From the IMG/VR virus record IMGVR_UViG_3300037041_001139, positions 1 through 46,759 of that record: 46,759 nucleotides of DNA; one strand, written 5' to 3'. The translations under genes were made by a program, and so were the position numbers. The stretch's first letter is position 1. The number at the start of each line of letters is the position of its first letter. Shown here piece by piece: positions 1-46,759 of this stretch. Origin of the DNA: a virus. The notes under the pieces are model-generated. The model made no database searches and was not told the origin of the DNA. It worked only from the letters and a program-made list of their open reading frames with translations.

Positions 1-183
1 TGTAAGCAGCTGATGGGGTTAGTATCGCTGCTTTGATTGAGATAGTTATGGCGTTCAGCACCGAACCAATGGGTTCAATAAGTGGGCTGGGAGTTTATCG
101 TACTTTGATAAACGAAGGCACACGGTCGCCGAGTTATTGGGTTCTTTTCAAGTTGTTGGGATTCTAAGCGATATTGAACCCAT
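1..183. mobile_element. attC-inserting structured element, copy A (3' part)
   Basis: This segment is base-for-base identical to 45670-45852, the 3' two thirds of the 267-bp element described at 45586. It contains the end of lobe 1 and all of lobe 2, which is closed by the 12-bp inverted repeat ATGGGTTCAATA / TATTGAACCCAT. The 5' part lies outside the window. The base after it is C, as in the other two copies, followed by sequence unrelated to them. Confidence 0.8.
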
Positions 184-216
184 CTACTTATAAAGTTACT
201 AATACCTTTGTTAAAT
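184..216. other. possible attC remnant after element copy A
   Basis: After the element end come C and a short A/T-rich stretch that ends in GTTAAAT at 210-216, which fits the integron right-box consensus GTTRRRY and lies directly before the next start codon. Only a very short AAAG/CTTT arm is visible, so this is a weak or decayed site; the left box is outside the window. Confidence 0.35.
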
Positions 217-217
217 A

Positions 218-15255: not shown

Positions 15256-15847
15256 CGTAATTATGCCCTCTCACTTGGGTAATTACCCTGGTGCAGCACA
15301 TAATCGGGATGAAAAGATACTACGAGCTATTGACAGCGTAATTAACCAGACCTTTACGGATTGGGAGTTAATAGTTATTGCTGATGGGTGCAATAAATCG
15401 TTTGATATTGTTTCAAGGGTATATGTAGAAAATCACAAAATACAGTGTTTACTTATAGATAAAGCAGCGCACTTCTCTGGAGTCCCAAGGTCACTAGGAA
15501 TCAGAGAGGCAATAGGTGATTATATTATTTACTTAGATATTGATGATTACTACGGGGAGAATCACCTAGAGATAATCAATAATAATCTGAATGGGTTTGA
15601 CTGGGTTTGGTACAATGATATTCGGTGGAAAAATAAATGGGTTGAAAATCCCTGCTCGATAATCACCATCGGGAGAAGCGGAACGAGTAATATTTGTCAC
15701 CGAAAAGATTTAGGGGAGAAGTGGACGGCTGTAGGGTATGCGCACGATTACCATTTTAACCACCAACTTTTAAAACATAAGAACTATGCCAAGATTGAAA
15801 CGCCTGAATACTTTGTTTGCCATGTACCTGGGATGTACGATATATAA
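15245..15847 (+). CDS. family-2-type glycosyltransferase
   Basis: This 200-residue protein has a GT-A fold start (KFSVIMPSHLGNY, then AIDSVINQTFTDWELIVIAD) and the acidic metal/nucleotide motif YLDIDDYY. Such enzymes move a sugar from a nucleotide sugar to an acceptor. It is near the minimal size for a GT-A domain, with no transmembrane anchor. It overlaps the portal gene and opens a block of sugar-modifying genes. Confidence 0.8.
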   Translation: MKFSVIMPSHLGNYPGAAHNRDEKILRAIDSVINQTFTDWELIVIADGCNKSFDIVSRVYVENHKIQCLLIDKAAHFSGVPRSLGIREAIGDYIIYLDIDDYYGENHLEIINNNLNGFDWVWYNDIRWKNKWVENPCSIITIGRSGTSNICHRKDLGEKWTAVGYAHDYHFNHQLLKHKNYAKIETPEYFVCHVPGMYDI

Positions 15848-15854
15848 TTAAGCA

Positions 15855-16631
15855 ATGAGAATATCAATTGTGATGACATACTTCAATCGGAAGTATCAAC
15901 TTGAAAAAACATTATTTTCTCTCATGGAATCCGAGCATAAAGATTTCAGCATTGTGATAGTGGATGATGCTAGTGATATTCCATTAGCTATTAACGGTTC
16001 TTACGGTTTCCCAATTGAGGTAATTAACATCACCAAAGAGGAAAAGCAATGGACAAACCCAGAGCCAGCATACAACAAAGGCATTATAAAAGCTTTAGAA
16101 TCAAAACCAGATATTATCTTTTTACAGAATGCGGAATGCTACCATACTAAAGATGTACTAAAGTATGCTAATGATAATCTAACTGAACTAAACTACCTGT
16201 CATTTGGCTGCTTTTCACTGGATGAAAAAACTACCTTCTCAGAGTTTGATATTAACGAGATTATGGGTATTAACAATTGCGGTGCAATAATAGACGGGGA
16301 GAATGCTTGGTATAACCACTCAATTCATAGACCTGTTGCGTATGATTTTTGTAGTGCTATAACAGCAAACAATCTAAGGAGGTTGAATGGATACGATGAA
16401 CGTTTTTCAAACGGTGTCGCTTATGGCGATAACTACCTGCTGAATCGGATTAAAATGTTAGGATTAGATGTACGGATTATTGATTTTCCTTTTGTGGTGC
16501 ATCAGTGGCACTATACCAACCCCAGCCATCCAAATCAAGCGGGGCTATTGGAAAGAAACTCAAACCTACTGATTGAGTTAACACAACTAAACAACTACAA
16601 AGCAGATCATCTATTCACACCAGACTTATGA
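15855..16631 (+). CDS. family-2-type glycosyltransferase (paralogue 1)
   Basis: This 258-residue enzyme starts RISIVMTYFNRKYQLEKTLF and has the GT-A signature FSIVIVDDASD. A C-terminal part with CSAITANNLRRLNGYDERF and FPFVVHQWHY resembles the galactosyltransferase-like C-terminal motif of family-2 enzymes. It shares these blocks with the next gene, so the two arose by tandem duplication. The stop overlaps the next start. Confidence 0.8.
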   Translation: MRISIVMTYFNRKYQLEKTLFSLMESEHKDFSIVIVDDASDIPLAINGSYGFPIEVINITKEEKQWTNPEPAYNKGIIKALESKPDIIFLQNAECYHTKDVLKYANDNLTELNYLSFGCFSLDEKTTFSEFDINEIMGINNCGAIIDGENAWYNHSIHRPVAYDFCSAITANNLRRLNGYDERFSNGVAYGDNYLLNRIKMLGLDVRIIDFPFVVHQWHYTNPSHPNQAGLLERNSNLLIELTQLNNYKADHLFTPDL

Positions 16632-17410
16632 GAAAAATTTCTATTGTGATGACATACTATGATCGAAAAGAGCAATTGAATAGGACACTTTTAAGTCTTA
16701 AACAATCAACGCACGATAATTTTAATGTTATCATAGTGGATGATGCAAGTCAAAAAAAACTAACCATAAACAGAGATTACGGGTATAAAATTGATGTAAT
16801 AAATGTTAAGGATAAAAACTGGAGCAATCCAGACATAGCCTACAATATTGGATTAAACTTTGCGATAAAAGAGTACAACCCTGAAATAGTAATCATTCAA
16901 AACGCTGAATGCTGCTATGTGGGAGATGTGATAAAATACTGCGAAAATATAACCGATAATGACTATATCTCATTCGGCTGCTACTCGCTTGCAAAAGGTG
17001 AAACTCCAAGCAATGTATCAATGAACCATCAGGGAATGACGTTTGACGGAGAAAGTGCATGGTACAACCATCCTGAATATAGGATTATGCCCTTTGACTA
17101 TTGTAGCGCAATCACCGCTAAAAACATGGTAAAACTGAATGGGTATGATGAGCTATTCTCGTTTGGTTACGGGTACGGAGATGATTACTTACTGTACAGA
17201 ATCAGATTACTAGGATTAAAAATAGAAATACCCTCAACGCCTTTTGTATTCCACCAATGGCATAGCAATAGGTTTAAAAAAGCCATAAACTGTAAACAAT
17301 ACTTAACAGAGCCGAACACAAAATGGCATAATTTTAATCAAAAGATATACGAGATGCTAATCAAGGAAAACTCCTTTAGAGCGAATCATTTTTACACTGA
17401 AAACCTATGA
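16628..17410 (+). CDS. family-2-type glycosyltransferase (paralogue 2)
   Basis: This 260-residue protein is a paralogue of the preceding one: RKISIVMTYYDRKEQLNRTL, NVIIVDDASQ, CSAITAKNMVKLNGYDELF, and TPFVFHQWH are matched blocks. The lysine-rich middle differs, so donor or acceptor use has probably diverged. It is coupled by four-base overlaps on both sides. Confidence 0.8.
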   Translation: MRKISIVMTYYDRKEQLNRTLLSLKQSTHDNFNVIIVDDASQKKLTINRDYGYKIDVINVKDKNWSNPDIAYNIGLNFAIKEYNPEIVIIQNAECCYVGDVIKYCENITDNDYISFGCYSLAKGETPSNVSMNHQGMTFDGESAWYNHPEYRIMPFDYCSAITAKNMVKLNGYDELFSFGYGYGDDYLLYRIRLLGLKIEIPSTPFVFHQWHSNRFKKAINCKQYLTEPNTKWHNFNQKIYEMLIKENSFRANHFYTENL

Positions 17411-18171
17411 AAATATACGACTGTTTTATTTTCTTTAATGAGTTTGAACTACTAGAACTAAGGCTAAAAACGCTTAATAGCATAGTGGATTACTTTGTGA
17501 TTGCAGAGATAAATATAACCCATACAGGACTGCCAAAACCGTACTACTTCGAAGAGAATAGAGAACGATTTAAGGAGTACGAGGATAAAATAATTTACTT
17601 AAAAGATATTGCCTACCCTCAATCAAACCCGTGGATTGTTGAGAATGCTCATCGAAATATGCTACAAAGAGGATGGGAGAATGTTACATCGGATGATTAT
17701 ATTATGATCTCTGATTTAGACGAAATACCAAACCCTAGGGCAATACTAAATGGGATTAATCAGCATCTAAATATATTCAGTTTGGTTCAAGATTTATACT
17801 GTTTTTACGTGAACTGTAAGTCAAATCAGGAGTGGATAGGAACGGTAGTTGCAAAGCGAGATAGAATAGTAAGCCCCCAAGATATAAGAAACAACAGGCA
17901 TTGCAACAAGTTTATTTATAACGGTGGCTGGCATTACTCCTCTATGGGGGGAAAGGATAGAATTAGAGAAAAATTTGCCTCCTTTGCAGAGACCGATTTT
18001 AATATACCTCTTTACATGAACGATGAAAATTTAGATAAGTGTTTAGAAAGTGGCAAGGATTTAACGGACAGAAAAGAGGATTACGCTCAAAAAAGATTCA
18101 TTAAGGATTCAGAGATTACACATAAAGAGATATTTGAGTTTAAAGACAAATACCCATCATTCTACAAATGA
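17407..18171 (+). CDS. GT17-like glycosyltransferase
   Basis: This 254-residue protein begins KIYDCFIFFNEFELLELRLK and contains VDYFVIAEINITHTGLPKP and YIMISDLDEIPNP. These are the conserved blocks of glycosyltransferase family 17, known from beta-1,4-N-acetylglucosaminyltransferase homologues, with SDLDE as the metal motif. It lies in the overlapping gene chain of the sugar block, so it probably works on the same glycan as its neighbours. Confidence 0.75.
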   Translation: MKIYDCFIFFNEFELLELRLKTLNSIVDYFVIAEINITHTGLPKPYYFEENRERFKEYEDKIIYLKDIAYPQSNPWIVENAHRNMLQRGWENVTSDDYIMISDLDEIPNPRAILNGINQHLNIFSLVQDLYCFYVNCKSNQEWIGTVVAKRDRIVSPQDIRNNRHCNKFIYNGGWHYSSMGGKDRIREKFASFAETDFNIPLYMNDENLDKCLESGKDLTDRKEDYAQKRFIKDSEITHKEIFEFKDKYPSFYK

Positions 18172-19271
18172 AAGTGCTACTAATTAACCCTTGGAATAGT
18201 GAAGTTTTTCCGACCCCTGCAATCGGATACTTGCAAGCCGCTATAAAGGCTAATGGGCATTACTGTAAGGCGATAGATTTATCAAAAATGTACGATGAGA
18301 AAGAGGAGTTTGATATTGTTGGAGCCACCTTTCACTCGTTCTCGGTTAAGTACGCTAAAGAAATAAGAGAACACTTTAAAGGGCATTTGATATGCGGAGG
18401 ACACCATCCAAGTGCAATGCCAGAACAGTTACTCTCTATTGGATATAATCAGGTGGTAGTTGGAGAGGGTGAAAAGGCAATGATTGATATTATCAATGGC
18501 AATACTTCTAAAATAGTGAAGGGTTGCTCTATTAATATTGATGATATACCCTTTGCGGATTACGAAGGGCTGAACTATGGAGGTGAAATGGGACTGCCTA
18601 TTATTTCCTCTAGGGGTTGCCCGTATAAGTGTAATTTTTGCGCATCAACAGACTTCTGGAAATCGTACCGAATGAGAAGTAGCGATAACGTTCTAAATGA
18701 ATTATCTTTGAGGTTCAGCCAAGGAATGAAAACGTTTATGTTTGAGGATGATAACTTTACAGCGAATAAGCAACGGGCAATTGATATAAGCATTGGCATA
18801 TCAGAGATGGGTTCATTTGGCTGGCAGTGCGCCTCCCGTGCGGAATCATTAGACGATGAACTTTGTAGGGTGCTAAAAATGGCGGGCTGTCATACCATTT
18901 GGCTAGGCATTGAATCGCTTAGTCAGGAATCTCTGGATCGCTGCAACAAAAATACAACGGTTGAGAAAATGATAAACGGGATTCGAATAGCAAACAGCCA
19001 CGGAATTAATACCATGTCGCAGTTTATAATCGGACTTCCAGATGATACAATAAACAACATCAACGAAACAGCAACACGGATAAAACAGAATAAAATCTAT
19101 CAGAGAGGGGCAAACATCCTATGGATACTACCAAAAACTTTAGCGCACCAACGGGCAAAAGAGAAAGGTTTTGATGATTCAATATTCTTAGAAAGTGGCG
19201 CACCCTGCTATACATACGAGCAGAGCATTGAAACATTAACACATTGGGCTAATCTAATTAACGCAGCATAA
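18168..19271 (+). CDS. B12-binding-domain radical SAM enzyme
   Basis: In this 367-residue protein the first 120 residues form a cobalamin-binding-like Rossmann domain (VLLINPWNSEVFPTPAIGYL, ICGGHHPSAMPEQ). A radical SAM domain follows, with RGCPYKCNFCAS (CxxxCxxC) near residue 150 and FEDDNFTA. Enzymes of this class do methylations, ring changes or rearrangements on unactivated carbons. Its position among glycosyltransferases suggests a sugar or a capsid/tail glycan as substrate, but this is inference. It is complete, including the C-terminal part of the barrel. Confidence 0.8.
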   Translation: MKVLLINPWNSEVFPTPAIGYLQAAIKANGHYCKAIDLSKMYDEKEEFDIVGATFHSFSVKYAKEIREHFKGHLICGGHHPSAMPEQLLSIGYNQVVVGEGEKAMIDIINGNTSKIVKGCSINIDDIPFADYEGLNYGGEMGLPIISSRGCPYKCNFCASTDFWKSYRMRSSDNVLNELSLRFSQGMKTFMFEDDNFTANKQRAIDISIGISEMGSFGWQCASRAESLDDELCRVLKMAGCHTIWLGIESLSQESLDRCNKNTTVEKMINGIRIANSHGINTMSQFIIGLPDDTINNINETATRIKQNKIYQRGANILWILPKTLAHQRAKEKGFDDSIFLESGAPCYTYEQSIETLTHWANLINAA

Positions 19272-31169: not shown

Positions 31170-32911
31170 GCATAGTAGGGGCAGGATATGAGTTTACTGT
31201 TGAAAATGCGGGGGTTGTAAAAGATGTTTACCCCGTTAACTACCGTTCGTGCAGTATTCGAAAGGAAGAGCAGGATAACCTAATATTTTTACGAACTAAG
31301 TTTAGCGGTTCTTTACTATTCATAAACGATGCAAGTAATGGAATAGATGATTTTAACTACTTTTTTAATATTGACCGAAACACAAATACTCGATGCAATG
31401 AGCTGGAAATAAAAATATATAATAATGGTATTTTATGCTATACGGGTTATTTTTCGGTTAATAAAGGTTCTTTCGATGTGGATAACTGCAAGTTTATCGT
31501 TACCCCTGAAACAGATGATAAGTACAGAGACATATTCGATAAATGGAATGAAGAGGTAAATATCATTGGAAAAACATTAGCGGTTACAGTACAATCACCA
31601 AATATTGTATTTCCAACAGCACCATACACTCGATGTATGTGGATGCTAGACATCATTGAATATTTATGCCAGCAGTTAATTCCTAGTGCTACTATCAGCA
31701 GCGATTTTTTTACCTTTGCAACGGATTGCGTAACATTAGACACCAATAAAAATCTTAACATAGCAATCGCCCAAAAAAGTGATATTGTCACCCCGTCAAG
31801 TTCAGAACCTGCCACAATAGCCATGCTTTCGTTTTCGCAGATGATGGACATTCTAAGAATTATGTTCAACGTGTACTGGGATTATGATGAGGTGGAAAAT
31901 GAGTTTATCATCGAGCATATCAGTTTCTTTGAAACAACAACAATAGTCAATACAAGAACGGATGCGCTGACCATTGGGAAAAATAAATACTCCTACGAAT
32001 CAATGAAAATCCCTTGGCGAGAGGTGTTTCATTTTATGGAATCACACTATGACGATTTTGTAGGAATGCCAATTGAGTATAGTGGTGGTTGCGTATCTAC
32101 CGAACCAACAGAAAGGGTAGTAGAGTACTCAATACCTGTAACAACGGATATTGAGTGGATTGAAAACACCGACAAGGATGTTTCTATATCAAGCGAAGGG
32201 TTTGTGCTACTAGCCACAGAAGACGTAGGCGGAGTATGGACGATAATGTCACAGGTTGGATACCTTTCCTACTCGGCAAAGATTAACGCCTCTCTGAGCT
32301 GGGCGAATTTACATCTGAACTATCAGCGGCACAACAGGGATTTAATCAACGGGCTGATCAATGGTCTTACGATGGTGTTTTGTTCCAGTAAACGATTAAT
32401 AAAACAGGTAGAGATTAGCATAGGAAACTGTGATTGTCCTCCAGAATACGCAAAGTACAAAACGGAATTAGGTGATGAGTATCTAGGTGGAGAGTACGGC
32501 TACCCTTCAGTTATTGATGTTACATTTAACGGGCTAACTAAGTTAAACCTAAAATACGGAGAACCAGAAAACCCGAACGAAGGGGTAGTAAACCCGTACA
32601 TTATCGGATTTGGTATGTTTTCCAGAGTAGAAACAGCCGATCCGATGAGCTACTGCAATAACGAGGGGGGTTGCGGAGAGGAGTATTGGGGTTATGCGTA
32701 TCAGAATTGGGCTACTCTGGTGATGTACTGGGATGCAGCAGGAACTATTCCTATAAACACAACGGGCGTTCATATGTACTACATGAACGGGTGTAATGTC
32801 ATTCCTGGAACAGAGGGAGATTTAGAACCCACTTACGGTTTTGTTGGTTGGTGGGAGTTGAACGAATTAAGCGCACTGGTTGAGTATCACTTATGCGATG
32901 CACCACACTAA
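31166..32911 (+). CDS. baseplate / distal tail protein
   Basis: This 581-residue protein follows the tape measure gene with a four-base overlap, where distal-tail and baseplate hub proteins are found. It is beta-rich, and its C-terminal part has several cysteines (CNNEGGCGEEYWGY). No catalytic motif is recognised, so the call is by position. Confidence 0.55.
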   Translation: MSIVGAGYEFTVENAGVVKDVYPVNYRSCSIRKEEQDNLIFLRTKFSGSLLFINDASNGIDDFNYFFNIDRNTNTRCNELEIKIYNNGILCYTGYFSVNKGSFDVDNCKFIVTPETDDKYRDIFDKWNEEVNIIGKTLAVTVQSPNIVFPTAPYTRCMWMLDIIEYLCQQLIPSATISSDFFTFATDCVTLDTNKNLNIAIAQKSDIVTPSSSEPATIAMLSFSQMMDILRIMFNVYWDYDEVENEFIIEHISFFETTTIVNTRTDALTIGKNKYSYESMKIPWREVFHFMESHYDDFVGMPIEYSGGCVSTEPTERVVEYSIPVTTDIEWIENTDKDVSISSEGFVLLATEDVGGVWTIMSQVGYLSYSAKINASLSWANLHLNYQRHNRDLINGLINGLTMVFCSSKRLIKQVEISIGNCDCPPEYAKYKTELGDEYLGGEYGYPSVIDVTFNGLTKLNLKYGEPENPNEGVVNPYIIGFGMFSRVETADPMSYCNNEGGCGEEYWGYAYQNWATLVMYWDAAGTIPINTTGVHMYYMNGCNVIPGTEGDLEPTYGFVGWWELNELSALVEYHLCDAPH

Positions 32912-36313: not shown

Positions 36314-39300
36314 ATGAAAAATCTATTACTACTCATCATACTATTACCAATACTATCTTTCGGACAAGGTGGAAATTATACCTTTACAACTCTTCGAGCA
36401 ACGAGTAAAATAACCAGCCCTATCTACTTCAAGGGTACAGATACCTTAATATCCAAGTTAGACACCGCCAATCACTGGAGGGCAGGAAGTTTAAGCAGGT
36501 ATCAGTATAGATACATCCATTCAATTACAAGCCCTTGGTCAATTTCAGGCACTGATATTTACTACAATTTAGGAAATGTACGGACGACTAAAAAGCTAAA
36601 GGGATCGAACATCGAAACGAACGACACCACATTTACCACTAGACTTGGCATTGAATCAGGGACGCACGAGGTCGAAACAACGCAACGATACAACACAATG
36701 GTCGGGCATCAGGCTGGACACGCCACCACAACGGGTAAGTTTAACACGTTCATCGGTGATGCGAGTGGGTATGCCAATACCACAGGCGGAAAGAATACAT
36801 TTTTAGGGTACAGTGCAGGGAGTGCCAATGTTTCGGGTTCTAATAACGTATTCTTAGGAATATATTCGGGTCAGTACACCAAGCAGTCCAATAAGCTAAT
36901 CATTGATGCGATTGATAGAAATGATACCACCGAGATTGAAACACTTTCTCTAATTACAGGAACGTTCGATGCAGTTGCAGCCAACCAAAAACTTCGATTC
37001 AATGGTATTCCTTACATTATGGGTTCACTTTCAGACTCAATCGCAGCCTCACGGGGTTACGCCAAGGCGCACGGGGGAGGGGGAACGTATACCGCTGGGA
37101 ATCGGATAGGAATAACCGCTGGTGATGTAATCTATAATACATCATACTGGAAAAATCAGGACACGGTTAAAAATACGTTAACAGGACTTTTAAAAGCGAC
37201 CTCTGGAGTTCTTTCAGTAGCCAGTGCAGGAACGGACTACCAAGCAGCACTAACCAACCCCGTAACAGGAACAGGAACAGCTACAACTAATAATTTACAG
37301 AAAGCAACAGGGGTTAACTCATTAGGAAATTCAGATATAATTGCCGATGGCACGAATACAACCTTTGGCACAACCACAACAGGGAGCAATATAGTGGTTA
37401 ATGCTACAGAAGCGGCAGATATTGCACCATCATTTCTTGGTACAAACTGGACGGCTACAAACGGTTGGAGTGCCGATGGGGTTGGAACGCAACTAACAAG
37501 GGTAAATAATGCAGCGATAGGAACTATCACACCATCTGGTTCAGGAGCAACTCCCTCGCAGTACGTTACCTATAAGATTACAATTGTTGCAAGTGCAATC
37601 AGCGGTGCAATTACCTATACCTATGGTGGTGTTACAGGAACAACCATAACAGCTACCACAATTACTGATTACATCACCGCGTTAACAACGGATAAGTTGA
37701 TTATATCAGGTGCGATAGCGTCAACGGCAACCATAACAAGTATAGTAATCAATCCTCTCACCAACGGAACTGGAGATGTAACCGTTCATGGTAATCTAAT
37801 AGTCAACTCTCCGATTAAAACAAGTGGAGGATTAGATGCTGTAAGTATTAATAAGTTAAGTTATGTTGGAATTGGAACGTATAACCCTATCTCACAGCTG
37901 CAAGTGTACAATTCATTCAACGGAACGAGAGGGATTAGGATAAGCAATCCTAGCACGGGATCATCTGCCTATTCATCTCTTATCTTTGAAAATAATTCAA
38001 GCATAACGGCTGGCGGTTTCTTTTTAAACAGTTCAAACAACACAGGATATAGCGGTGCTGGTACTTTATCGATCGGCTCTATTTCGAATGTCGGCATGGG
38101 ATTATTAACTAATAATGCAGTGAGGCTATTTATTTCAGCAGCGGGCAACGTTGGTATTAATCAATTAGTTCCAGCCAGTAAGTTAAGCATTGACGGAGGC
38201 AACGCCACAGCGGTAGCCTTACAATTAACCAACGGCACAACCACAGGGCAGACGGTAACGGATGGTTCATTTTACGGCTCAGATGCTTCGGGTAATACCA
38301 CCATCATTCAGAAGGAAGCCAACAAGTACATCGACATCATGAAGAATGACACCTCGGTTATTCGGGTGGCAGCGAATAAAAATGTAGGGATTGGAACTAC
38401 TGCACCTCGAGTAAAACTAAAAGTGGTGGGTGATATTGAAAGTAATAATATGATAAGGGCTGCTGGTTGGTTAACTGGTACTGGTACAGGATTAGGTACT
38501 GAGATTGGTGTTGATGGAAGTAATAGTCTTTTAATTAGTTATAATAGAACAACTTCAGCATATTCTTCATTAAGAATTGCTGGTTCAACAATAAATATTG
38601 GTCATGGTAATAATGATAATTTATTTATTAATACTACTGGTAACGTTGGTATTGGAACTACTGCACCAATTAATAAGTTAACTGTAGTTGGTGGTATTTC
38701 CGCCGATTCAATAAAAGTTGGCAACGTGCATAAAAATCTGGTATGGGATGCCAAGCAATCCGCCTTGACCGCTAAACAAATACATGACTCACTGACCGTT
38801 TCAGCAACCATGAAAGGTTCGGCAAGCACCAACGGGCTAAGATTGAATGGAAGTCAAAAAATAGTACTTGATTCTGCAAATACAACGTATGGAGGGGCGT
38901 TCACGAAGTTTCAGTATAATAAATTGCAAGGAGCAACTACATTAATCGGAGAAACCAACGCAACATCTTTAACCACAAGGATTGGAATAGGTTCAGGAAA
39001 TGTAGAAAATGAAACCACTCAAAGATATGGAGTTTATATAGGTTATCAGGCTGGCTATTCAACAACAACTGCTATTGGAAATATGTTTATAGGTTCACAA
39101 GCTGGTTATAGTAATATAACAGGAACCGATAATACCATTATTGGTAACTTTGCCGGACTGTCTAGTCTTTTAAATGGGAATACCTTTATTGGGTCTTTTG
39201 CGGGACAGCATAGTACTGGTGCAGATAATGTATTTATTGGCAACCAGTGCGGAGTTGAAAATACAGGAAGTAGAAACATATTTATAGGAGTTCCAACAAT

Positions 39301-42137: not shown

Positions 42138-42152
42138 ATGTTGTTAAACATA

Positions 42153-42182
42153 TTGACAAATCAAAAAACAGTTGTATATTTG
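42153..42182 (+). promoter_or_regulatory. Bacteroidota-type promoter for the cassette region
   Basis: TTG (in TTGACA) at 42153-42155, 19 bases, then TATATTTG at 42175-42182 (perfect TAnnTTTG). It lies between the lysis terminator and the small helix-turn-helix gene. It could read into the cassettes, in the way an integron's cassette promoter does. Confidence 0.75.
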
Positions 42183-42208
42183 CAATTGTAAACCAACAAT
42201 TAAACGCT

Positions 42209-42340
42209 ATGCAAAAAGTAAGAATTTCAACCTATGCGAAAATGATAGGAAAAACACCCCAATGGGTGAGGGTATTGATTAAAGAAGGGAAAGTAAAAAC
42301 CACTAAAATAGACAACACTATATTTATTCTTGTTGAGTAG
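42209..42340 (+). CDS. mini helix-turn-helix protein (excisionase/MerR-like)
   Basis: This 43-residue protein reads ISTYAKMIGKTPQWVRVLIK then EGKVKTTKIDNTIFI. This is a winged helix-turn-helix of the excisionase/MerR-like type, in which a helix-turn-helix is followed by a short wing. It has its own promoter 26 bases upstream and no strong Shine-Dalgarno sequence. It is the first gene before the cassette array and could control it or help recombination; this is inference. Confidence 0.6.
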   Translation: MQKVRISTYAKMIGKTPQWVRVLIKEGKVKTTKIDNTIFILVE

Positions 42341-42351
42341 CGGCAAATGAA

Positions 42352-42436
42352 CGCTAACGGCTGCGGGTTTGTTGTCGGTTGCCAAGCCCTTACATTAATT
42401 AATGAGCGAATTAATAAACTAACGAATAAATGAGCG
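42352..42436. other. possible attC-like site
   Basis: CGCTAACGG at 42352-42360 matches the left box and following bases of the clear sites downstream. A hairpin GGGTTTG (42365-42371) / CAAGCCC (42383-42389) follows. I do not find a matching right arm and GTT box, so this is a weak or altered site. Confidence 0.35.
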
Positions 42437-42889
42437 ATGGAAAAAGAAATAGTAATTACAATGCGTAAAGATGATTTAAGAAGTCTGCGTTACGATGATG
42501 AAGCCCTATGGGAATGGTGTAAAAGCAAGAAAATAAAAGTTGAAGAGCCAAGGGATATTAAGACTAAACTATTCGAAACTTTGGTTATAACCCTAAAAAC
42601 TCCTGAGCAAAAACTTTTATTTTCGTGTAGGTGGTTTGGTGCGTTGGAAAAACTTTCAAACGTGCCAAGCAACTGTAATAAACCACAAGTTAGCAATAAC
42701 GAAGCGGTTAATAATATCAATAAACATAAAAAGAAGATATATACAGATAGCGATTTCAGAACCGAAAAAGGAGAAAATAAAAGCGGAGTGGTGGTTTGCC
42801 GCCATTGTGGAAGCGATGATGTTTCTTTTAATTGGGACGCTGGCTTATATATATGTGACAATTGCAACAAAAAGGAACTGCAACACTAA
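42437..42889 (+). CDS. hypothetical protein with C-terminal zinc ribbon
   Basis: This 150-residue protein has a helical start (KDDLRSLRYDDEALWEWCKS), a polar middle, and a C-terminal zinc ribbon with CRHCGSDDVSFNW followed by CDNCNK. Zinc ribbons of this type bind nucleic acids or proteins. Downstream lies the first clear attC-like site. No family is recognised outside the ribbon. Confidence 0.55.
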   Translation: MEKEIVITMRKDDLRSLRYDDEALWEWCKSKKIKVEEPRDIKTKLFETLVITLKTPEQKLLFSCRWFGALEKLSNVPSNCNKPQVSNNEAVNNINKHKKKIYTDSDFRTEKGENKSGVVVCRHCGSDDVSFNWDAGLYICDNCNKKELQH

Positions 42890-42924
42890 TGGTTAACCCC
42901 GAAGACATGCCACGGAAAAATGAC

Positions 42925-43056
42925 CTATAACGTTCCGACCATTGGAGTAGTGGCGGATTGAAAAGATAAATTTTGATTAACAACTAAAAATAAAATAATA
43001 TGAAAAAGCAAAATGAGAACACAGAACCCGCCATTACTTCCAATGGTGTGTTTAAG
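42925..43056. other. attC-like site 1
   Basis: Left box CTATAAC (42925-42931); left arm ACCATTGGAGTAGTGGCGG (42938-42956) pairs with CCGCCATTACTTCCAATGGT (43028-43047) with one bulge and one G-T pair; then GTTTAAG (43050-43056). The start codon of the next gene (43000) is in the loop. Confidence 0.7.
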
Positions 43057-43227
43057 ATGTATGAACTTGATTTCGGGGACACAAATTTAATTACCGAAAA
43101 CAAAAAGGACATACTGAACTGGATAGAGGCAGACCTTGACAATATTGATGAGAACGGATTGCAGTATGAAATTACAACTAAGTTAATGACGAGAGAAGAA
43201 ATAGATGCCCTGCCGGAGTGGGCTTAA
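43000..43227 (+). CDS. hypothetical cassette protein
   Basis: This 75-residue acidic protein has FKMYELDFGDTNLITENKKD and ends DALPEWA; the layout suggests a small alpha/beta protein. Its ATG and first ~19 codons lie inside attC-like site 1, so residues such as EPAITSNG are written by the right arm of the site. Another site follows directly after the stop. No family is recognised. Confidence 0.5.
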   Translation: MKKQNENTEPAITSNGVFKMYELDFGDTNLITENKKDILNWIEADLDNIDENGLQYEITTKLMTREEIDALPEWA

Positions 43228-43238
43228 TTTTTTTTTGC

Positions 43239-43370
43239 GCCTAACGGTGGTGGTTAGCGTTCGTTGCCGACCTAAAATAACAGATAAATTAACTTAAAAG
43301 CAGAAATATTATGAAAACAGAAAATGTATCAAAAGAGCGAAAAGGCAATGACGTTAACCACGTGTTAGGC
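43239..43370. other. attC-like site 2 (best match to the integron consensus)
   Basis: Left box GCCTAAC (43239-43245) and right box GTTAGGC (43364-43370) are perfect matches to RYYYAAC and GTTRRRY and to each other. The inner arms GTGGTTAGCGT (43250-43260) and ACGTTAACCAC (43351-43361) pair over 11 positions with one G-T. Then TTGCC (43264-43268) pairs with GGCAA (43344-43348). Unequal spacers lie between boxes and arms, as in known attC sites. The next gene starts in the loop. Confidence 0.85.
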
Positions 43371-43559
43371 AACGTTATTTGTACTAAAGAAGAAGCTGTA
43401 ACTGTTTATGTAAAAGAAATTGGAATAGCTATTCAAACACTATTAGAACAAAGAGAACACCCAACGTATTATTTCAATTCCGAAAGTGGTCAAAACATGA
43501 GGTTAAAAATTATTGAATTATTACATAAAAACGCAATGGAAGCACTGGCTATTTTATAA
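43311..43559 (+). CDS. hypothetical cassette protein
   Basis: From ATG 43311 this is an 82-residue protein; a GTG at 43362 is also possible. The first 20 codons lie in attC-like site 2. The part after the site (TKEEAVTVYVKEIGIAIQTL, then RLKIIELLHKNAMEALAIL) is helical and of unknown function. GTTAGGCAAC just inside the gene and GTTGCCTAAC after the stop are inverted copies that mark the cassette ends. Confidence 0.5.
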   Translation: MKTENVSKERKGNDVNHVLGNVICTKEEAVTVYVKEIGIAIQTLLEQREHPTYYFNSESGQNMRLKIIELLHKNAMEALAIL

Positions 43560-43705
43560 TGTTGCCTAACGAGGAATCTATTAATAAAATGGCTTCAAAA
43601 TACATGGGAAGCGGAAGAACTATCGGAGGAGGCGATTCAGGATGGATAGAATCAGCATATAAAGATGGGGTAAAAGATTTGGTTAAAATGCTTAAAGGCA
43701 ATTAG
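43559..43705 (+). CDS. hypothetical 48-residue protein, overlapping start
   Basis: The ATG shares its A with the stop codon of the previous gene (TAATG). The protein reads MLPNEESINKMASKYMGSGR then TIGGGDSGWIESAYKDGVKD and a short helix. The left box GCCTAAC of the previous cassette forms part of its codons (LPNE), so the gene lies where an attC should be. This suggests that an attC was lost and two cassettes were fused. Confidence 0.45.
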   Translation: MLPNEESINKMASKYMGSGRTIGGGDSGWIESAYKDGVKDLVKMLKGN

Positions 43706-43707
43706 CC

Positions 43708-43796
43708 ATAACGGCTGCAAATTAAAAATGTGCGACCCAAGCAATGAACTTAGTTATTAATCAACAGTAAAGCATGTTTTTAATTTGCTGTTATAA
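43708..43796. other. attC-like site 3
   Basis: ATAAC (43708-43712) pairs with GTTAT (43790-43794), and GCAAATTAAAAA (43717-43728) pairs perfectly with TTTTTAATTTGC (43777-43788). The loop is variable. The site is closely related to the one at 46231, with conserved arms and a different loop. Confidence 0.8.
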
Positions 43797-43810
43797 AACG
43801 TTAAAGTGCG

Positions 43811-44095
43811 ATGGAAACAAACCTACAGCATGTAAGTATGATTGCAAGGACAATTAAGCGAACAACCACAAATGAAGGAGAGAAGTGCAAGCAGTATTTT
43901 AGGATACTTGGCGCACCCACGAAATGTTCAGCTTTGGTTATTACGAAGTTAGTATTAACCGAACGCAACGAACTATATGAAAAGTATGGTTATAGGTTTA
44001 TTCGAGAATGGAAAGGCAAAGCGGTTTACATACAAATATTTTCCATTAAACTAGAAACATTATCGGAGGTTATGAAGTGGATTAGCGAAATCTAG
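43811..44095 (+). CDS. hypothetical cassette protein
   Basis: This 94-residue basic protein (MIARTIKRTTTNEGEKCKQY, LGAPTKCSALVITKLVL) has no recognised family. It begins 11 bases after GTTATAAAAC and ends 13 bases before GTTTTATAAC, the exact inverted copy. These are the two ends of one cassette. Confidence 0.5.
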   Translation: METNLQHVSMIARTIKRTTTNEGEKCKQYFRILGAPTKCSALVITKLVLTERNELYEKYGYRFIREWKGKAVYIQIFSIKLETLSEVMKWISEI

Positions 44096-44111
44096 TGCGG
44101 TGGCTAATGTT

Positions 44112-44231
44112 TTATAACGTAAAATGTATGGTGCGTTGCTGCACCGAACTTAACTTGAAACTAAACACTTAAAAATATGGACAAAAAGATCAATGAAACA
44201 CAGGAGCAATGCACTATACATAGTGTTAGCG
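44112..44231. other. attC-like site 4
   Basis: Left box TTATAAC (44112-44118); left arm ATGTATGGTGCGTTGCT (44124-44140) pairs with AGCAATGCACTATACAT (44205-44221) over 17 positions with two G-T pairs; right box GTTAGCG (44225-44231). The start codon of the next gene lies in the loop. Confidence 0.85.
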
Positions 44232-44425
44232 GTAGTTATTTTAGAAAGTGGTATCATTCTTATGAATACTGTTCTAAATGTTTTGCTAAAGATGATAAGC
44301 ATGATATGAATTGCTTAGAATGTTGCCCTGTTAAAAACGGAAAAGTAGAAAAAGTAATGTATGCGAATCAACAGGAATTACAGGATAAACAAAACGATTC
44401 ATTCAAAAGATTAAGCAGGTGGTAG
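44177..44425 (+). CDS. hypothetical cysteine-rich cassette protein
   Basis: From ATG 44177 this is an 82-residue protein. The first 18 codons lie in attC-like site 4. The rest has CSKCFAKDDKHDMNCLECCP, a likely zinc-binding knot. GTTAGCGGT (44225-44233) inside the gene and ACCGCTAAC (44437-44445) after it are perfect inverted copies and mark the cassette. No family is recognised. Confidence 0.5.
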   Translation: MDKKINETQEQCTIHSVSGSYFRKWYHSYEYCSKCFAKDDKHDMNCLECCPVKNGKVEKVMYANQQELQDKQNDSFKRLSRW

Positions 44426-44438
44426 TTTTTTTAATTAC

Positions 44439-44568
44439 CGCTAACGGTTGCAGGTTGTGACAGTAAAGGAGTTTAAAACTTAAAATTATCAATAAATGAA
44501 AAAGAAAGTTGAAACTAAAGACAATCAAACAGCCTCAAAGCCTTTATTGGCTCAACCTGCTGTTATGC
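44439..44568. other. attC-like site 5
   Basis: Left box CGCTAAC (44439-44445); arm GCAGGTTG (44450-44457) pairs with CAACCTGC (44553-44560); right box GTTATGC (44562-44568). The ATG of the next gene (44496) is in the loop, and the right arm is translated as part of LAQPAVMRS. Confidence 0.75.
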
Positions 44569-44891
44569 GCAGTTTATTACCTGCAATTAAGGGCGGGATA
44601 GCAGGTTGTTTAAATTGTGGATATACCGAGGATTTACTACCAATGCGAACAAGGTTGTACCAAGGTTTTGGCGGCTGGATGATTACTAAAAATGGAGAGA
44701 TTTATTTTTGTGAAAGTCATAAAACTGAATATGATGAAGCCAAAACCTTGAGTTATATTGAGCGTAGGGCGAAATTAGAACCAGAGTGCGATTGGCGTGC
44801 TAATTTAGATTTACCATTAAGAAGTGCAGTATATCAACGGCATGGTAAAAGTAAATGGGTATTAGTTGAGCGCGGGATGGGGTTCGCCTAA
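44496..44891 (+). CDS. hypothetical cassette protein
   Basis: This 131-residue protein has an attC-encoded N-terminus (MKKKVETKDNQTASKPLL). The body contains CLNCGYTEDLLPMRTRLYQG and IYFCESHKTEYDEAKTL, a possible zinc site of CxxC and CxxH type. TTATGCGCA near its start and TGCGCATAA just after its stop are inverted cassette ends. The function is unknown. Confidence 0.5.
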   Translation: MKKKVETKDNQTASKPLLAQPAVMRSLLPAIKGGIAGCLNCGYTEDLLPMRTRLYQGFGGWMITKNGEIYFCESHKTEYDEAKTLSYIERRAKLEPECDWRANLDLPLRSAVYQRHGKSKWVLVERGMGFA

Positions 44892-44895
44892 ATTG

Positions 44896-45217
44896 CGCAT
44901 AATGGTTCGGTGCTTACCGCCGTTTCGTGGGGTACTTTCCACGAAAAGGAAGGCGGTTGAACGCTTGCCGTACCCTGCGAAATGGCTGTAAGCAGCTGAT
45001 GGGGTTAGTATCGCTGCTTTGATTGGGGTAATCCTGGCGTTCAGCACCGAACCAATGGGTTCAATAAGTGGGCTGGGAGTTTGCGTACTTTGATAAACGA
45101 AGGCACACGGTCGCCGAGTTATTGGGTTCTTTTCAAGTTGTTGGGATTCTAAGCGATATTGAACCCATCGCTTTGCAGATTGGCGGTCGTTTTAATGCCG
45201 CCAATGTGCTGTTAGCT
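44896..45217. other. attC-like site 6, interrupted by element copy B
   Basis: Without the insert (44903-45168) the site reads GCATAA|C, then arm GCAGATTGGCGG (45175-45186) pairing with CCGCCAATGTGC (45198-45209) with one mismatch, then right box GTTAGCT (45211-45217). Removing the insert restores the AAC core. Confidence 0.75.
44903..45168. mobile_element. attC-inserting structured element, copy B (266 bp)
   Basis: This is a full copy of the element described at 45586, starting TGGTTCGGTGCT and ending TATTGAACCCAT. It differs from copy C in a short cluster in lobe 1 (around 45025-45035) and in the small hairpin of lobe 2, where GTTTATC has become GTTTGC. It lies between TAA and C of the attC left box without a target duplication. 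It carries no gene that I can support. Confidence 0.8.
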
Positions 45218-45273
45218 TTAGTTGCTTTTTTCTTTTTGAGCGTGGATTTAGAAACAATTTAATAAAATATAAA

Positions 45274-45579
45274 ATGACAAAACAGGAATTATTTAAGAAG
45301 TATTCAATTGATGAAAGCCATAATGTTTGGGATAACTCAATTGACAATTGGATGAGTGTTGAAGTTTACCGTGTGATGCACAATGGCGAATTACCACCAC
45401 CAAATGACACAAGTGTAAAATGGGTTACTGATTTTTTAGACAAGCAAAAAGATATGGCTTGGTGGGTAAAAAATGTAATGAGCCGTAAAGATTGGGGCAG
45501 TTTATATTTAACAGCCAAAAGAATGGTTTATTCATTATCTGACCAAATTCTCGGTGCGTTGGCAGAAAAAAGCAATTGA
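45274..45579 (+). CDS. hypothetical cassette protein
   Basis: This 101-residue protein (LFKKYSIDESHNVWDNSIDN, DFLDKQKDMAWWVKNVMSRK) is helical and of unknown function. The cassette is bounded by TTAGCTTTAGTTGCTTTTTT (45212-45231) and AAAAAAGCAATTGAAGCTAA (45566-45585), inverted copies with 18 of 20 matches, the longest such pair here. Confidence 0.5.
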   Translation: MTKQELFKKYSIDESHNVWDNSIDNWMSVEVYRVMHNGELPPPNDTSVKWVTDFLDKQKDMAWWVKNVMSRKDWGSLYLTAKRMVYSLSDQILGALAEKSN

Positions 45580-45940
45580 AGCTAATGGTTCGGTGCTTAC
45601 CGCCGTTTCGTGGGGTACTTTCCACGAAAAGGAAGGCGGTTGAACGCTTGCCGTACCCTGCGAAATGGCTGTAAGCAGCTGATGGGGTTAGTATCGCTGC
45701 TTTGATTGAGATAGTTATGGCGTTCAGCACCGAACCAATGGGTTCAATAAGTGGGCTGGGAGTTTATCGTACTTTGATAAACGAAGGCACACGGTCGCCG
45801 AGTTATTGGGTTCTTTTCAAGTTGTTGGGATTCTAAGCGATATTGAACCCATCGGTTGCAGGCTAAGAAACGTAGCCTTGTAATCACGTTTCAAAATAGG
45901 TAGGAACTTTGTAGGCTATGTTTTTTAGCCTTTGTTACCG
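45579..45940. other. attC-like site 7, interrupted by element copy C
   Basis: Without the insert (45586-45852) the site reads AAGCTAA|CGGTTGCAGG, nearly the same as site 5. Arm AGGCTAAGAAAC (45860-45871) pairs with GTTTTTTAGCCT (45920-45931) with one G-T, and the right box is GTTACCG (45934-45940). Confidence 0.8.
45586..45852. mobile_element. attC-inserting structured element, copy C (267 bp, reference copy)
   Basis: Two lobes lie end to end. Lobe 1 (45586-45737) is closed by TGGTTCGGTGCT / AGCACCGAACCA. It holds a side hairpin (CCGCC..GGCGG with TTTCGTGG/CCACGAAA), an inner stem GAACGC/GCGTTC, and AAGCAGC/GCTGCTT. The side-hairpin loop GGTAC can pair with GTACC at 45653-45657. Lobe 2 (45738-45852) is closed by ATGGGTTCAATA / TATTGAACCCAT and has the hairpin GTTTATC/GATAAAC. 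Both ends of the element are stem ends. I do not know this element; the precise attC position and multiple copies argue for mobility. Confidence 0.8.
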
Positions 45941-45959
45941 CCAGTTAATTATTATTAAA

Positions 45960-46226
45960 ATGGAAACAAAAAAATGTTCAAGATGTGGTGAAATTTTAAC
46001 ACTTGATAAATTTCACAAAGATTCCCGCTATGAAAAAGGTGTAAAAGGGCAATGTAGAAAATGTTTGCAGGATTTACGAAGTAAACGATATTATGACAAT
46101 CCAGAGAAGTATAAGAAAAAAATGAATGAATGGATTAAATCAACTCCTGAATTAACCGAAAAAAGGTTAATTACTGCATACACAAAATATTTGCAAGATA
46201 GGGGATTTTCTGTAGTTGCTCCTTAA
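45960..46226 (+). CDS. small zinc-finger cassette protein
   Basis: I read it from ATG 45960 (88 residues). CSRCGEILTLDKFHKDSRYE followed by CRKC forms a four-cysteine zinc finger of the kind seen in small phage HNH-like proteins, but no HNH residues follow it; the rest is basic and helical. GTTACCGCC (45934-45942) before it and GGCGGTAAC (46229-46237) after it are perfect inverted copies that mark the cassette. Confidence 0.6.
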   Translation: METKKCSRCGEILTLDKFHKDSRYEKGVKGQCRKCLQDLRSKRYYDNPEKYKKKMNEWIKSTPELTEKRLITAYTKYLQDRGFSVVAP

Positions 46227-46230
46227 TTGG

Positions 46231-46322
46231 CGGTAACGGCTGCAAATTAAAAATCGTGCGTGAACATGCAACGCACATAGTATCAACCGACAGCAAAGCA
46301 TGTTTTTAATTTGCTGTTATAA
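46231..46322. other. attC-like site 8
   Basis: Left box CGGTAAC (46231-46237); arm GCAAATTAAAAA (46242-46253) pairs perfectly with TTTTTAATTTGC (46303-46314); right box GTTATAA (46316-46322). The left box fits the upstream cassette and the right box fits the downstream one, so they match each other only in TAAC/GTTA, as expected of a site at the join of two cassettes. Confidence 0.85.
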
Positions 46323-46337
46323 AACGTTAAAGTGCGT

Positions 46338-46697
46338 ATGAGTAAAAGAGACAATTCTGGTATAAATCATACTTGCCCTAGGATAGACGAAGTAATTTCT
46401 GCGGTTAAATCCCAAGATTGGGGTGATTCTTATTGGGCTGAAAAAGATGTTATTGAAATACTAGAAGAAATTAGAAGAATGAACGCAGAATTACGGGACT
46501 GGGGCAATGATAGATATTATGAAGCAGAAGAATACAAAGACTTTGAGGGCAAGTATGATGATGCTGTATCTGAAAATCGTGAATTAAAGGATGAAGTAAA
46601 GGCGTTGACTAATGAAGTAAATGATAAAGACGAAATGATTTACGACCTTCAACAAGAACTTAAAGCCATGAAGTGTGCGGTGGCTAATGTTTTATAA
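46338..46697 (+). CDS. hypothetical coiled-coil cassette protein
   Basis: I read it from ATG 46338 (119 residues); a GTG six bases upstream is an alternative. RIDEVISAVKSQDWGDSYWA is followed by a long charged helix (ENRELKDEVKALTNEVNDKD). The stop codon lies in GTTTTATAAC (46689-46698), the inverted copy of GTTATAAAAC at 46316-46325, so the cassette end overlaps the gene end. The function is unknown. Confidence 0.55.
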   Translation: MSKRDNSGINHTCPRIDEVISAVKSQDWGDSYWAEKDVIEILEEIRRMNAELRDWGNDRYYEAEEYKDFEGKYDDAVSENRELKDEVKALTNEVNDKDEMIYDLQQELKAMKCAVANVL

Positions 46698-46759
46698 CGG
46701 TCGGGTATATGACCAGCCCAGCAAGGACTAACTTTTGAAACAAAATGAATAATTAAATA
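46692..46759. other. attC-like site 9, left half only
   Basis: Left box TTATAAC (46692-46698) is followed by GGTCGGGTATATGACC, which can form its own short hairpin, and A/T-rich sequence to the window end. The right arm and right box would be outside the window, so the array continues. Confidence 0.6.

Follow-up and report, generated by a model that had tools for sequence, protein, structure and literature searches.

A probable integron-like cassette array of mobile gene units in a tailed phage of Bacteroidota type

Introduction

In integrons and CALINs, small promoter-poor ORFs stand in tandem with R''-L''-L'-R' hairpins in which only AAC and GTT are conserved, and the two ends of each cassette are complementary to one another. 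Integron units join and leave next to an attI point that adjoins the gene for a tyrosine recombinase, the hairpin lies at the unit end distal to that point, and attC is found at the 3' end of the ORF with a G|TT crossover on the coding strand. Using canonical attC models, Qi et al. 2023 (PMC9892861) described CALINs, which are integrase-less attC-type arrays, in tailed phages that include the Bacteroidota (Polaribacter) phage P12002L. Bacteroidota only very rarely have complete integrons (PMC9024848).

Here we analyze a window of 46,759 nucleotides, the whole of IMG/VR virus record IMGVR_UViG_3300037041_001139, in which a cassette array occupies 42.9-46.7 kb. An initial annotation, which contrasted an attC array inside a phage with the mainly chromosomal, transposon and plasmid locations of known integrons, had drawn attention to it. 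An array of this kind is not new by itself, because phage-borne CALINs, including that of P12002L, had already been published (PMC9892861). We consider the region to be an array of mobile units belonging to an integron-like, phage-associated cassette system, with a probability of about 0.85.

Results

The window contains a tandem array of hairpin sites

Analysis of the window confirmed a genuine array with at least eight hairpin recombination sites, the number initially proposed, in which the attC architecture R''(..AAC)-L''-loop-L'-R'(GTT..) recurs in tandem. Six of the sites (R'' end/R' start) are 42931/43050, 43245/43364, 43712/43790, 44118/44225, 44445/44562 and 46237/46316, two are each split by a 266-nt insert (44902/45211 and 45585/45934), and half-sites lie at 42356 and, open and close to the contig end, at 46698. 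The perfect boxes reported earlier are both exact (GCCTAAC, 43239-43245; GTTAGGC, 43364-43370). We found five pairs of 10-bp cassette-end inverted repeats starting with GTTA within the array and none across the remaining 42.9 kb; among 2,000 dinucleotide-shuffled versions of the array region, 1,969 contained no such pair, and no version exceeded two. The sites had been described as intergenic, which is not strictly so because several start codons are found inside hairpin loops.

All features of the array lie on the plus strand. At its left end is an R''-type core, CGCTAAC (42349..42356), with a degenerate or truncated hairpin, followed by unit 0 (42357..42931), which contains a Zn-ribbon ORF (42437-42889) and a closing R'' CTATAAC that ends at 42931. 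Unit 1 (42932..43245) has a hairpin at 42932-43049 (arm score 18.9), R' at 43050, an ORF that starts in the hairpin loop (43000-43227), and R'' at 43236-43245, its R boxes being mismatched. Unit 2 (43246..43570) consists of a hairpin with R' GTTAGGCAAC (43364-43373), an ORF (43311-43559) and R'' GTTGCCTAAC (43561-43570), and the short unit 3 (43571..43712) has an ORF of 38 aa (43589-43705) and R'' TAGCCATAAC with no recognizable hairpin. In unit 4 (43713..44118), a hairpin with a 17-bp arm and R' GTTATAAAAC (43790-43799) precedes an ORF (43811-44095) and R'' GTTTTATAAC (44109-44118). Unit 5 (44119..44445) has a hairpin with two G.T pairs, R' GTTAGCGGTA (44225-44234), an ORF starting in the loop (44177-44425) and R'' TACCGCTAAC (44436-44445). 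Unit 6 (44446..44902) combines a hairpin, R' GTTATGCGCA (44562-44571) and R'' TGCGCATAA with an ORF at 44496-44891, or alternatively from an ATG within R', that has a related protein in Bacillus phages.

The 266-nt element, a two-domain hairpin inserted at the TAA|C crossover point, is present as copy A (44903..45168) and copy B (45586..45852; 97% identity to A; also at TAA|C). Between them lies unit 7 (45169..45585), with a hairpin from 45175, R' GTTAGCTTTA (45211-45220), an ORF (45274-45579) and R'' AAGCTAA. Unit 8 (45853..46237) has another hairpin with two G.T pairs, R' GTTACCGCCA (45934-45943), an ORF with an endonuclease-VII-like zinc motif (45960-46226) and R'' TGGCGGTAAC (46228-46237). 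The hairpin of unit 9 (46238..46698; R' 46316-46325, ORF 46338-46697, R'' 46689-46698) is nearly identical to that of unit 4 and its R' and R'' ends are the same, with a different ORF. The hairpin start of a further unit (46699..46759) is cut by the contig end. At the opposite contig end, the array resumes with the 3' part of a third copy, C, of the 266-nt element (1..183), and a right flank beginning C|TACTTATAAAG follows (184..217), comparable to the AAC|TAC or AAC|TAT found after the last unit in most sister arrays. This third copy indicates that the array runs on past the contig ends and that phage genes flank it on both sides. Some of the array may be inactive, given the two interrupted sites, the unit with no hairpin and the unit whose R boxes do not match.

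The array is carried by a tailed phage and lacks a recombinase gene

The terminase, portal and tape measure genes of the record and its closest relatives identify a tailed phage of Bacteroidota type, as first annotated, and the nearest relatives of its TerL are from Flavobacterium phages (25-33%). Searches of the whole record with PF00589 and TIGR02249 recovered no tyrosine recombinase, in agreement with the integrase's reported absence, and Rfam produced no match with E values as high as 1 allowed. No relatives in viral or genome contigs were recovered with exact DNA strings taken from the array, the endolysin and the terminase. As a recombinase-less array, the window array is the counterpart of a CALIN. 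Absence of an integrase does not characterize these arrays in general, given that relatives have one immediately next to theirs.

Several sister arrays adjoin a short, non-IntI tyrosine recombinase

We found the same array type in about 25 other phage records. Scans with CGCTAACGGYTGCRGGTT (genomes) and CTAACGG... (viruses) gave mostly chance matches by a first test; the scan also recovered a viral pair (L012/L013) in which an array adjoins a recombinase gene. Recombinase-adjacent arrays are present in the Polaribacter phages Leef_1 and Freya and in the metagenomic groups G033, L239 and L012/L013, with a gap of about 40-60 nt between the array end and the start of the tyrosine recombinase gene. 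In 14 records we found neither serine recombinase nor Y1 transposase families. Unlike IntI, the sister-array recombinases lack the IntI-specific insertion (alpha patch; compared with IntI1), and the sister recombinase scores 112.7 bits with the integron-integrase model, below the cut-off of 265. Its best NCBIfam model, NF040815 ("site-specific tyrosine recombinase/integron integrase"), matches over its full length (E 4e-52) at 177 bits, with a cut-off of 220. The protein is short (~270-290 aa) and two-domain, like XerA/XerC/XerD-type recombinases, and among solved structures the XerC-like 4a8e is its best relative at the sequence level; unlike those enzymes, which act at dif, it is phage-encoded and lies beside cassette arrays.

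Units are exchanged at fixed AAC points in relatives

In four sister phages (L099, L104, L107 and L113), flanks that are ~80-95% identical enclose entirely different units between ...CTGATAAC and AAC|TACT. The swap points of close relatives fall at TAA|C, a coding-strand crossover of AA|C, with the hairpin 5' of the ORF, which argues that the mobile unit is a hairpin followed by an ORF, the reverse of an integron cassette. We had first considered the polarity of standard integrons, in which the crossover is G|TT and the hairpin is 3'-terminal, and then dropped it, because sister phages differ in the hairpin that adjoins their shared left flank and have no hairpin ahead of their shared right flank.

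The cultured phages Freya_1, Freya_5 and Freya_10 have 0 mismatches in 43,513 bp, and cassette content, confined to an interval that is bounded by TTTACAAC and ACCCCTATA and lies upstream of the integrase, is their sole difference; Freya_1 has an empty site. Freya_8 shows a clean internal excision that removes one 902-bp unit precisely, from one AAC point to another, and the last unit differs in Freya_6. Cassettes in these isolates are gained and lost site-specifically at an attI-like point next to the integrase, and units are swapped or lost at fixed AAC points in sister as well as isogenic phages, several of which have an adjacent recombinase. The junctions share only 3-4 nt (AAC or CAAC), and this microhomology resolves the cut position only to within 3-4 nt. 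That homologous recombination or deletion between repeats produced this variation without a site-specific recombinase is the least probable of the explanations we weighed: hairpins are repeated and some arrays contain near-identical sites, but the junctions share so little, unrelated units are exchanged exactly at AAC at both ends, and a recombinase gene adjoins the variable point. Cargo of the arrays includes DNA methyltransferases, PAPS-reductase-like proteins, an RNA ligase and a radical SAM protein.

Hairpins covary and are marked by G.T wobbles

Pairing between R'' and R' of the same unit scored 9.46 out of 10 over 37 units, compared with 5.96 (maximum 6.84 in 10,000) for shuffled units. 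This complementarity is unit-specific, with sequences that differ from cassette to cassette, and its length of 10 bp resembles that of class 1 cassettes, of which typical ones showed 8-12 bp in our controls. In a fixed-register alignment of the arms of 19 sites, the helix was 95.7% paired, 15 of 17 pairs had compensatory changes, and covariation was 0.978 vs 0.209. A G.T pair occurs 15-17 nt before GTT in 36 of 38 sites, with the G always in L''; wobbles with G in L'' number 73, the other transition pairs 8, 1 and 8, and the G.T pairs are always on the coding strand. Class 1 attC and a site of Tetrasphaera phage TJE1, used as controls, have two single-base bulges (+9/+16 from AAC). Unlike these, the array sites mostly lack paired extrahelical bulges, have fixed G.T pairs near the same positions, and contain occasional bulges that vary in position. 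Wobble-type sites are likewise present on the minus strand of phage P12002L (38882-38933, 38038-38087 and 32226-32278); they surround a DNA methyltransferase and a Mom-like gene and may or may not coincide with the two P12002L sites tested in PMC9892861.

Discussion

The initial reading of an integron-type attC array stands as far as integron-like organization is concerned; a canonical attC identity does not, given the missing paired bulges, the hairpin-then-ORF units bounded by TAA|C and the non-IntI recombinase. Like integron cassettes, these tandem units carry small, promoter-poor ORFs and hairpins in which conservation is limited to AAC and GTT; they move next to an attI-like point that adjoins the gene for a tyrosine recombinase, and the hairpin occupies the end distal to that point; their ORFs, however, are reversed, with transcription toward the recombinase.

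An ordinary CALIN, in which IntI took canonical attC cassettes from a host chromosomal integron and the phage carries them as passive cargo, would share the AAC/GTT R boxes, own-end complementarity and small unrelated ORFs, and has a precedent in phages, as attC of P12002L recombined with IntI1 in E. coli (PMC9892861). We nevertheless think it unlikely: fixed G.T pairs largely replace the bulge pair, ORF polarity relative to the crossover is opposite, the same array type lies beside non-IntI recombinases in phages, and Bacteroidota very seldom have complete integrons. Considerably less plausible still is that the hairpins act solely in RNA, as structured 5'-UTRs or as sites at which the RNA of a phage operon is processed. 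Coding-strand pairing is G.U-compatible and start codons lie within or just after hairpins, and a second role in RNA is possible, but an RNA function leaves unexplained both the unit-specific 10-bp end complementarity with invariant GTT/AAC and the fact that isogenic phages gain and lose whole units at AAC.

In the integron-like reading, a unit begins right after a conserved ...TAA|C core, hairpin first and small ORF second, and closes with its own ...TAA core, often the stop codon of the ORF. Its last 10 nt are complementary to the inner R' box beginning with GTT, and in an excised circle R'' would pair with R' of the same unit and close the hairpin. The tyrosine recombinase would then read the structure of the hairpin, with its AAC/GTT ends, its arm of 17 bp and its T.G wobbles at distances of about 10 (or 12) and 15 nt from GTT. 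A cut at AA|C would link the unit to an attI-like site in double-stranded DNA (AAC|TAC... or AAC|ACCCCTATA...) beside the recombinase gene. We infer that the adjacent recombinase is the acting enzyme, that the mechanism is single-stranded, and which strand is cut. With no recombinase in the record and no direct variant of this particular array, activity of the window array is deduced from relatives; it may still be movable in trans by an enzyme of the host or of a co-infecting phage.

Neither a phage recombinase dedicated to such arrays, nor the inverted polarity, nor sites marked by wobbles appear to have been described in the literature searched. The phage CALIN study (PMC9892861) contains no polarity reversal, G.T signature, dedicated phage recombinase or isogenic cassette variants. 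Since relatives swap such units beside a recombinase gene, it appears that an integron-like gene-collecting system of their own operates in some phages. The odds seem about even that these arrays form a phage-borne integron-like class (XerA-like recombinase, wobble hairpins and reversed polarity), separate in origin from IntI integrons, that exchanges accessory genes such as DNA methyltransferases within one Bacteroidota phage population.

Phage genomes are mosaic, and to our knowledge dedicated machinery that swaps single accessory genes in them is hardly known; among the isogenic cultured phages compared here, whole gene units next to a recombinase are the only difference. Given the cargo listed above, the units could alter phage escape from restriction. 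The availability of Freya and Leef_1 in culture makes the mechanism open to direct testing, and the reversed polarity and absent bulges would reveal which features of attC recombination are essential.

Cassette array in the phage record

The window, an entire IMG/VR record of 46,759 bases, encodes a terminase, a portal, a tape measure, a primase/helicase and a Sak4-like annealing protein typical of tailed phages, and the closest matches of its terminase are Bacteroidota phages, chiefly of Flavobacterium (25-33% identity). As the initial annotation proposed, the interval from 42.9 kb to the record end consists of hairpin sites interspersed with small ORFs, with inter-unit hairpin arms of ~10-17 bp. 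Within this array, exact 10-bp inverted repeats (GTTA...TAAC) form five pairs, each bracketing one of a succession of ORFs; no such pair was found in the rest of the record. Dinucleotide shuffling left no 10-bp pair in 1,969 of 2,000 replicates. The pair sequences differ from unit to unit (hairpin plus small ORF), except that units 4 and 9 have common ends around different ORFs.

Directly upstream of the array, within 42150-42341, we observed a Bacteroidota-type promoter-like stretch (TTGTATATTTG) and an ORF for a 43-aa HTH-like protein (42210-42340), a region that may drive the array. After the portal gene and ahead of later structural genes, the intervals 15245-17410 and 18168-19271 contain genes resembling glycosyltransferases together with a possible B12-binding/radical-SAM-like gene.

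Exchange of whole units at AAC

The polarity of the units was visible in related phages with common flanks. The left flank of L099, L104 and L107 is 88-96% identical through ...AAGTCAATCTGATAAC and diverges fully thereafter, while the right flank of L099, L104 and L113 (88-93% identical) begins straight after the AAC of the last unit, with TACTCGACTTGCG... or TATTGCACTTGCG.... The units between these flanks differ in each phage compared: L099 carries four small ORFs, L104 a DNA methyltransferase and L107 a PAPS-reductase-like protein. As the hairpin adjoining the left flank belongs to the variable block and no hairpin precedes the common right flank, we conclude that the mobile unit is hairpin-ORF-TAA, with crossover between AA and C on the coding strand. 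Start codons lie within the hairpin loop or just 3' of the hairpin, and the core TAA doubles as the stop codon in many units.

Isogenic variants display gain, loss and replacement of units at AAC. Outside the array, three Polaribacter phages from one host strain (Freya_1, Freya_5 and Freya_10) are identical across 43,513 bp. Freya_1 has an empty site (TTTACAAC joined to ACCCCTATAACAACAATAAG) upstream of the integrase, where Freya_5 and Freya_10 carry 1,744 bp and 4,942 bp of units, respectively. Within the interval read, Freya_9 differs from Freya_10 only in missing the last unit; Freya_8 is missing exactly one 902-bp unit between two AAC points within the array, and the last unit of Freya_6 differs. 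Junction identity among these variants is 3-4 nt. The deposited lengths of the ten strains (Freya_1 to Freya_10; L230-L235) fall into seven classes, and length differences correspond to whole units in the strains checked. The Freya phages have been described as strains of one species, in an article whose main text does not use the word "cassette" (PMC8776804).

A repeated element at the crossover point

Two copies of a 266-nt element lie in the array, at 44903-45168 and 45586-45852, and the element recurs at the record start (bases 1-183), where phage early genes come after it. Its presence at both places indicates that the contig break falls within the array, and the right end of the array is thus not chimeric, a concern raised initially; if the two contig ends are joined, the array would be bounded by phage genes on both sides. 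The element comprises two hairpin domains back to back, TGGTTCGGTGC..GCACCGAACCA and ATGGGTTCAATA..TATTGAACCCAT, with a strong predicted RNA fold of -107 kcal/mol (z about -4.8 relative to mononucleotide shuffles), and no relative was found in Rfam, the phage collection or the plasmid collection. As it is inserted exactly between TAA and C in all three places, the crossover point, its position suggests that the element may itself be a substrate or parasite of the cassette system.

Comparison of the sites with integron attC

Class 1 integron cassettes from plasmids share with the phage units complementarity between their own ends (8-12 bp in the same test). The L'' inner arm of class 1 attC contains two single-base bulges, +9 and +16 after AAC, which are also present in a site of phage TJE1, whereas window-type sites have wobble pairs (G in L'', T in L'), one roughly 10 or 12 nt and another roughly 15 nt ahead of GTT. 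In the window and its relatives, 36 of 38 sites have a G.T pair 15-17 nt before GTT. When 19 arms were aligned in a fixed register, 95.7% of cells were paired, with compensatory changes at 15 of 17 pairs; the G.U at the fixed position in 19 of 19 arms is partly by construction, as arms were picked for a wobble at 15 nt. Standard integron cassettes have a G/TT crossover and a hairpin 3' of the ORF, whereas phage units have an AA/C crossover and a 5' hairpin, a layout that from the opposite strand resembles an integron with inverted ORFs. Of the canonical attC features, these sites share the AAC/GTT ends and own-end pairing, but not the L'' bulge pair or the crossover.

A recombinase adjoins related arrays

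A search confirmed the reported lack of a tyrosine recombinase in the window; serine recombinases and Y1 transposases were also absent, and none of the three was found in 13-14 related array records. In another phage record, G033, the last unit ends in ...TTGCTAAC, followed by TACCCTATATACACACC, and a 280-aa tyrosine recombinase begins ~35 nt further, with portal and capsid genes after it. Relatives of this protein occupy the same place in Polaribacter phage Leef_1 (68% identical; five wobble-type sites upstream) and L239 (67% identical; five sites, AAC followed by ACCCCTATATACACACC), and more distant relatives adjoin a two-unit array in L012/L013 (35%) and the Freya arrays (33% identical). 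The best model for the recombinase is XerA/integron-integrase NF040815, with a score below the model cut-off, and it scores 112.7 bits against the integron integrase model (cut-off 265). IntI1 contains a ~30-residue insertion with an ALERKYPRAG motif, whereas the phage recombinase is without this insertion.

Distribution and origin of the cassettes

Among 80 IMG/VR loci related by primase/helicase alignment, 12-14 have the same sites, all oriented as the helicase, and an independent scan with one arm motif identified ~16 further contigs with such arrays, including 95-kb and 372-kb records. Besides the window, ~25 distinct records contain at least one good unit, a count that varies with the threshold and retrieval of relatives. 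The jumbo-phage-sized record L210 (372,283 bases) carries a unit of this type. In the published lytic Polaribacter phage P12002L (L036), a Mom-like DNA modification gene and a DNA methyltransferase are surrounded by wobble-type sites on the minus strand (38882-38933, 38038-38087 and 32226-32278).

Phage L070 contains a close relative (77% of residues) of a cassette gene from L099, and no hairpin could be seen next to the L070 gene. Similarity to proteins of Bacillus phages was found for one protein encoded in the window's cassettes. These similarities suggest that units may capture phage genes.

A 2023 study (PMC9892861) reported cassette arrays without an integrase (CALINs) in phages, one of them in P12002L, as well as the activity of such arrays with IntI1. 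Bacteroidota very rarely have a complete integron (PMC9024848). In the openly available journal literature searched, we found no prior account of the phage recombinase, reversed polarity, G.T signature or Freya variants. We propose that the recombinase adjoining the arrays would carry out unit exchange, probably on one folded strand, and that the window array may be served in trans. The window array is most likely the integrase-less, CALIN-like counterpart of an integron-like cassette system that is complete in other Bacteroidota phages.
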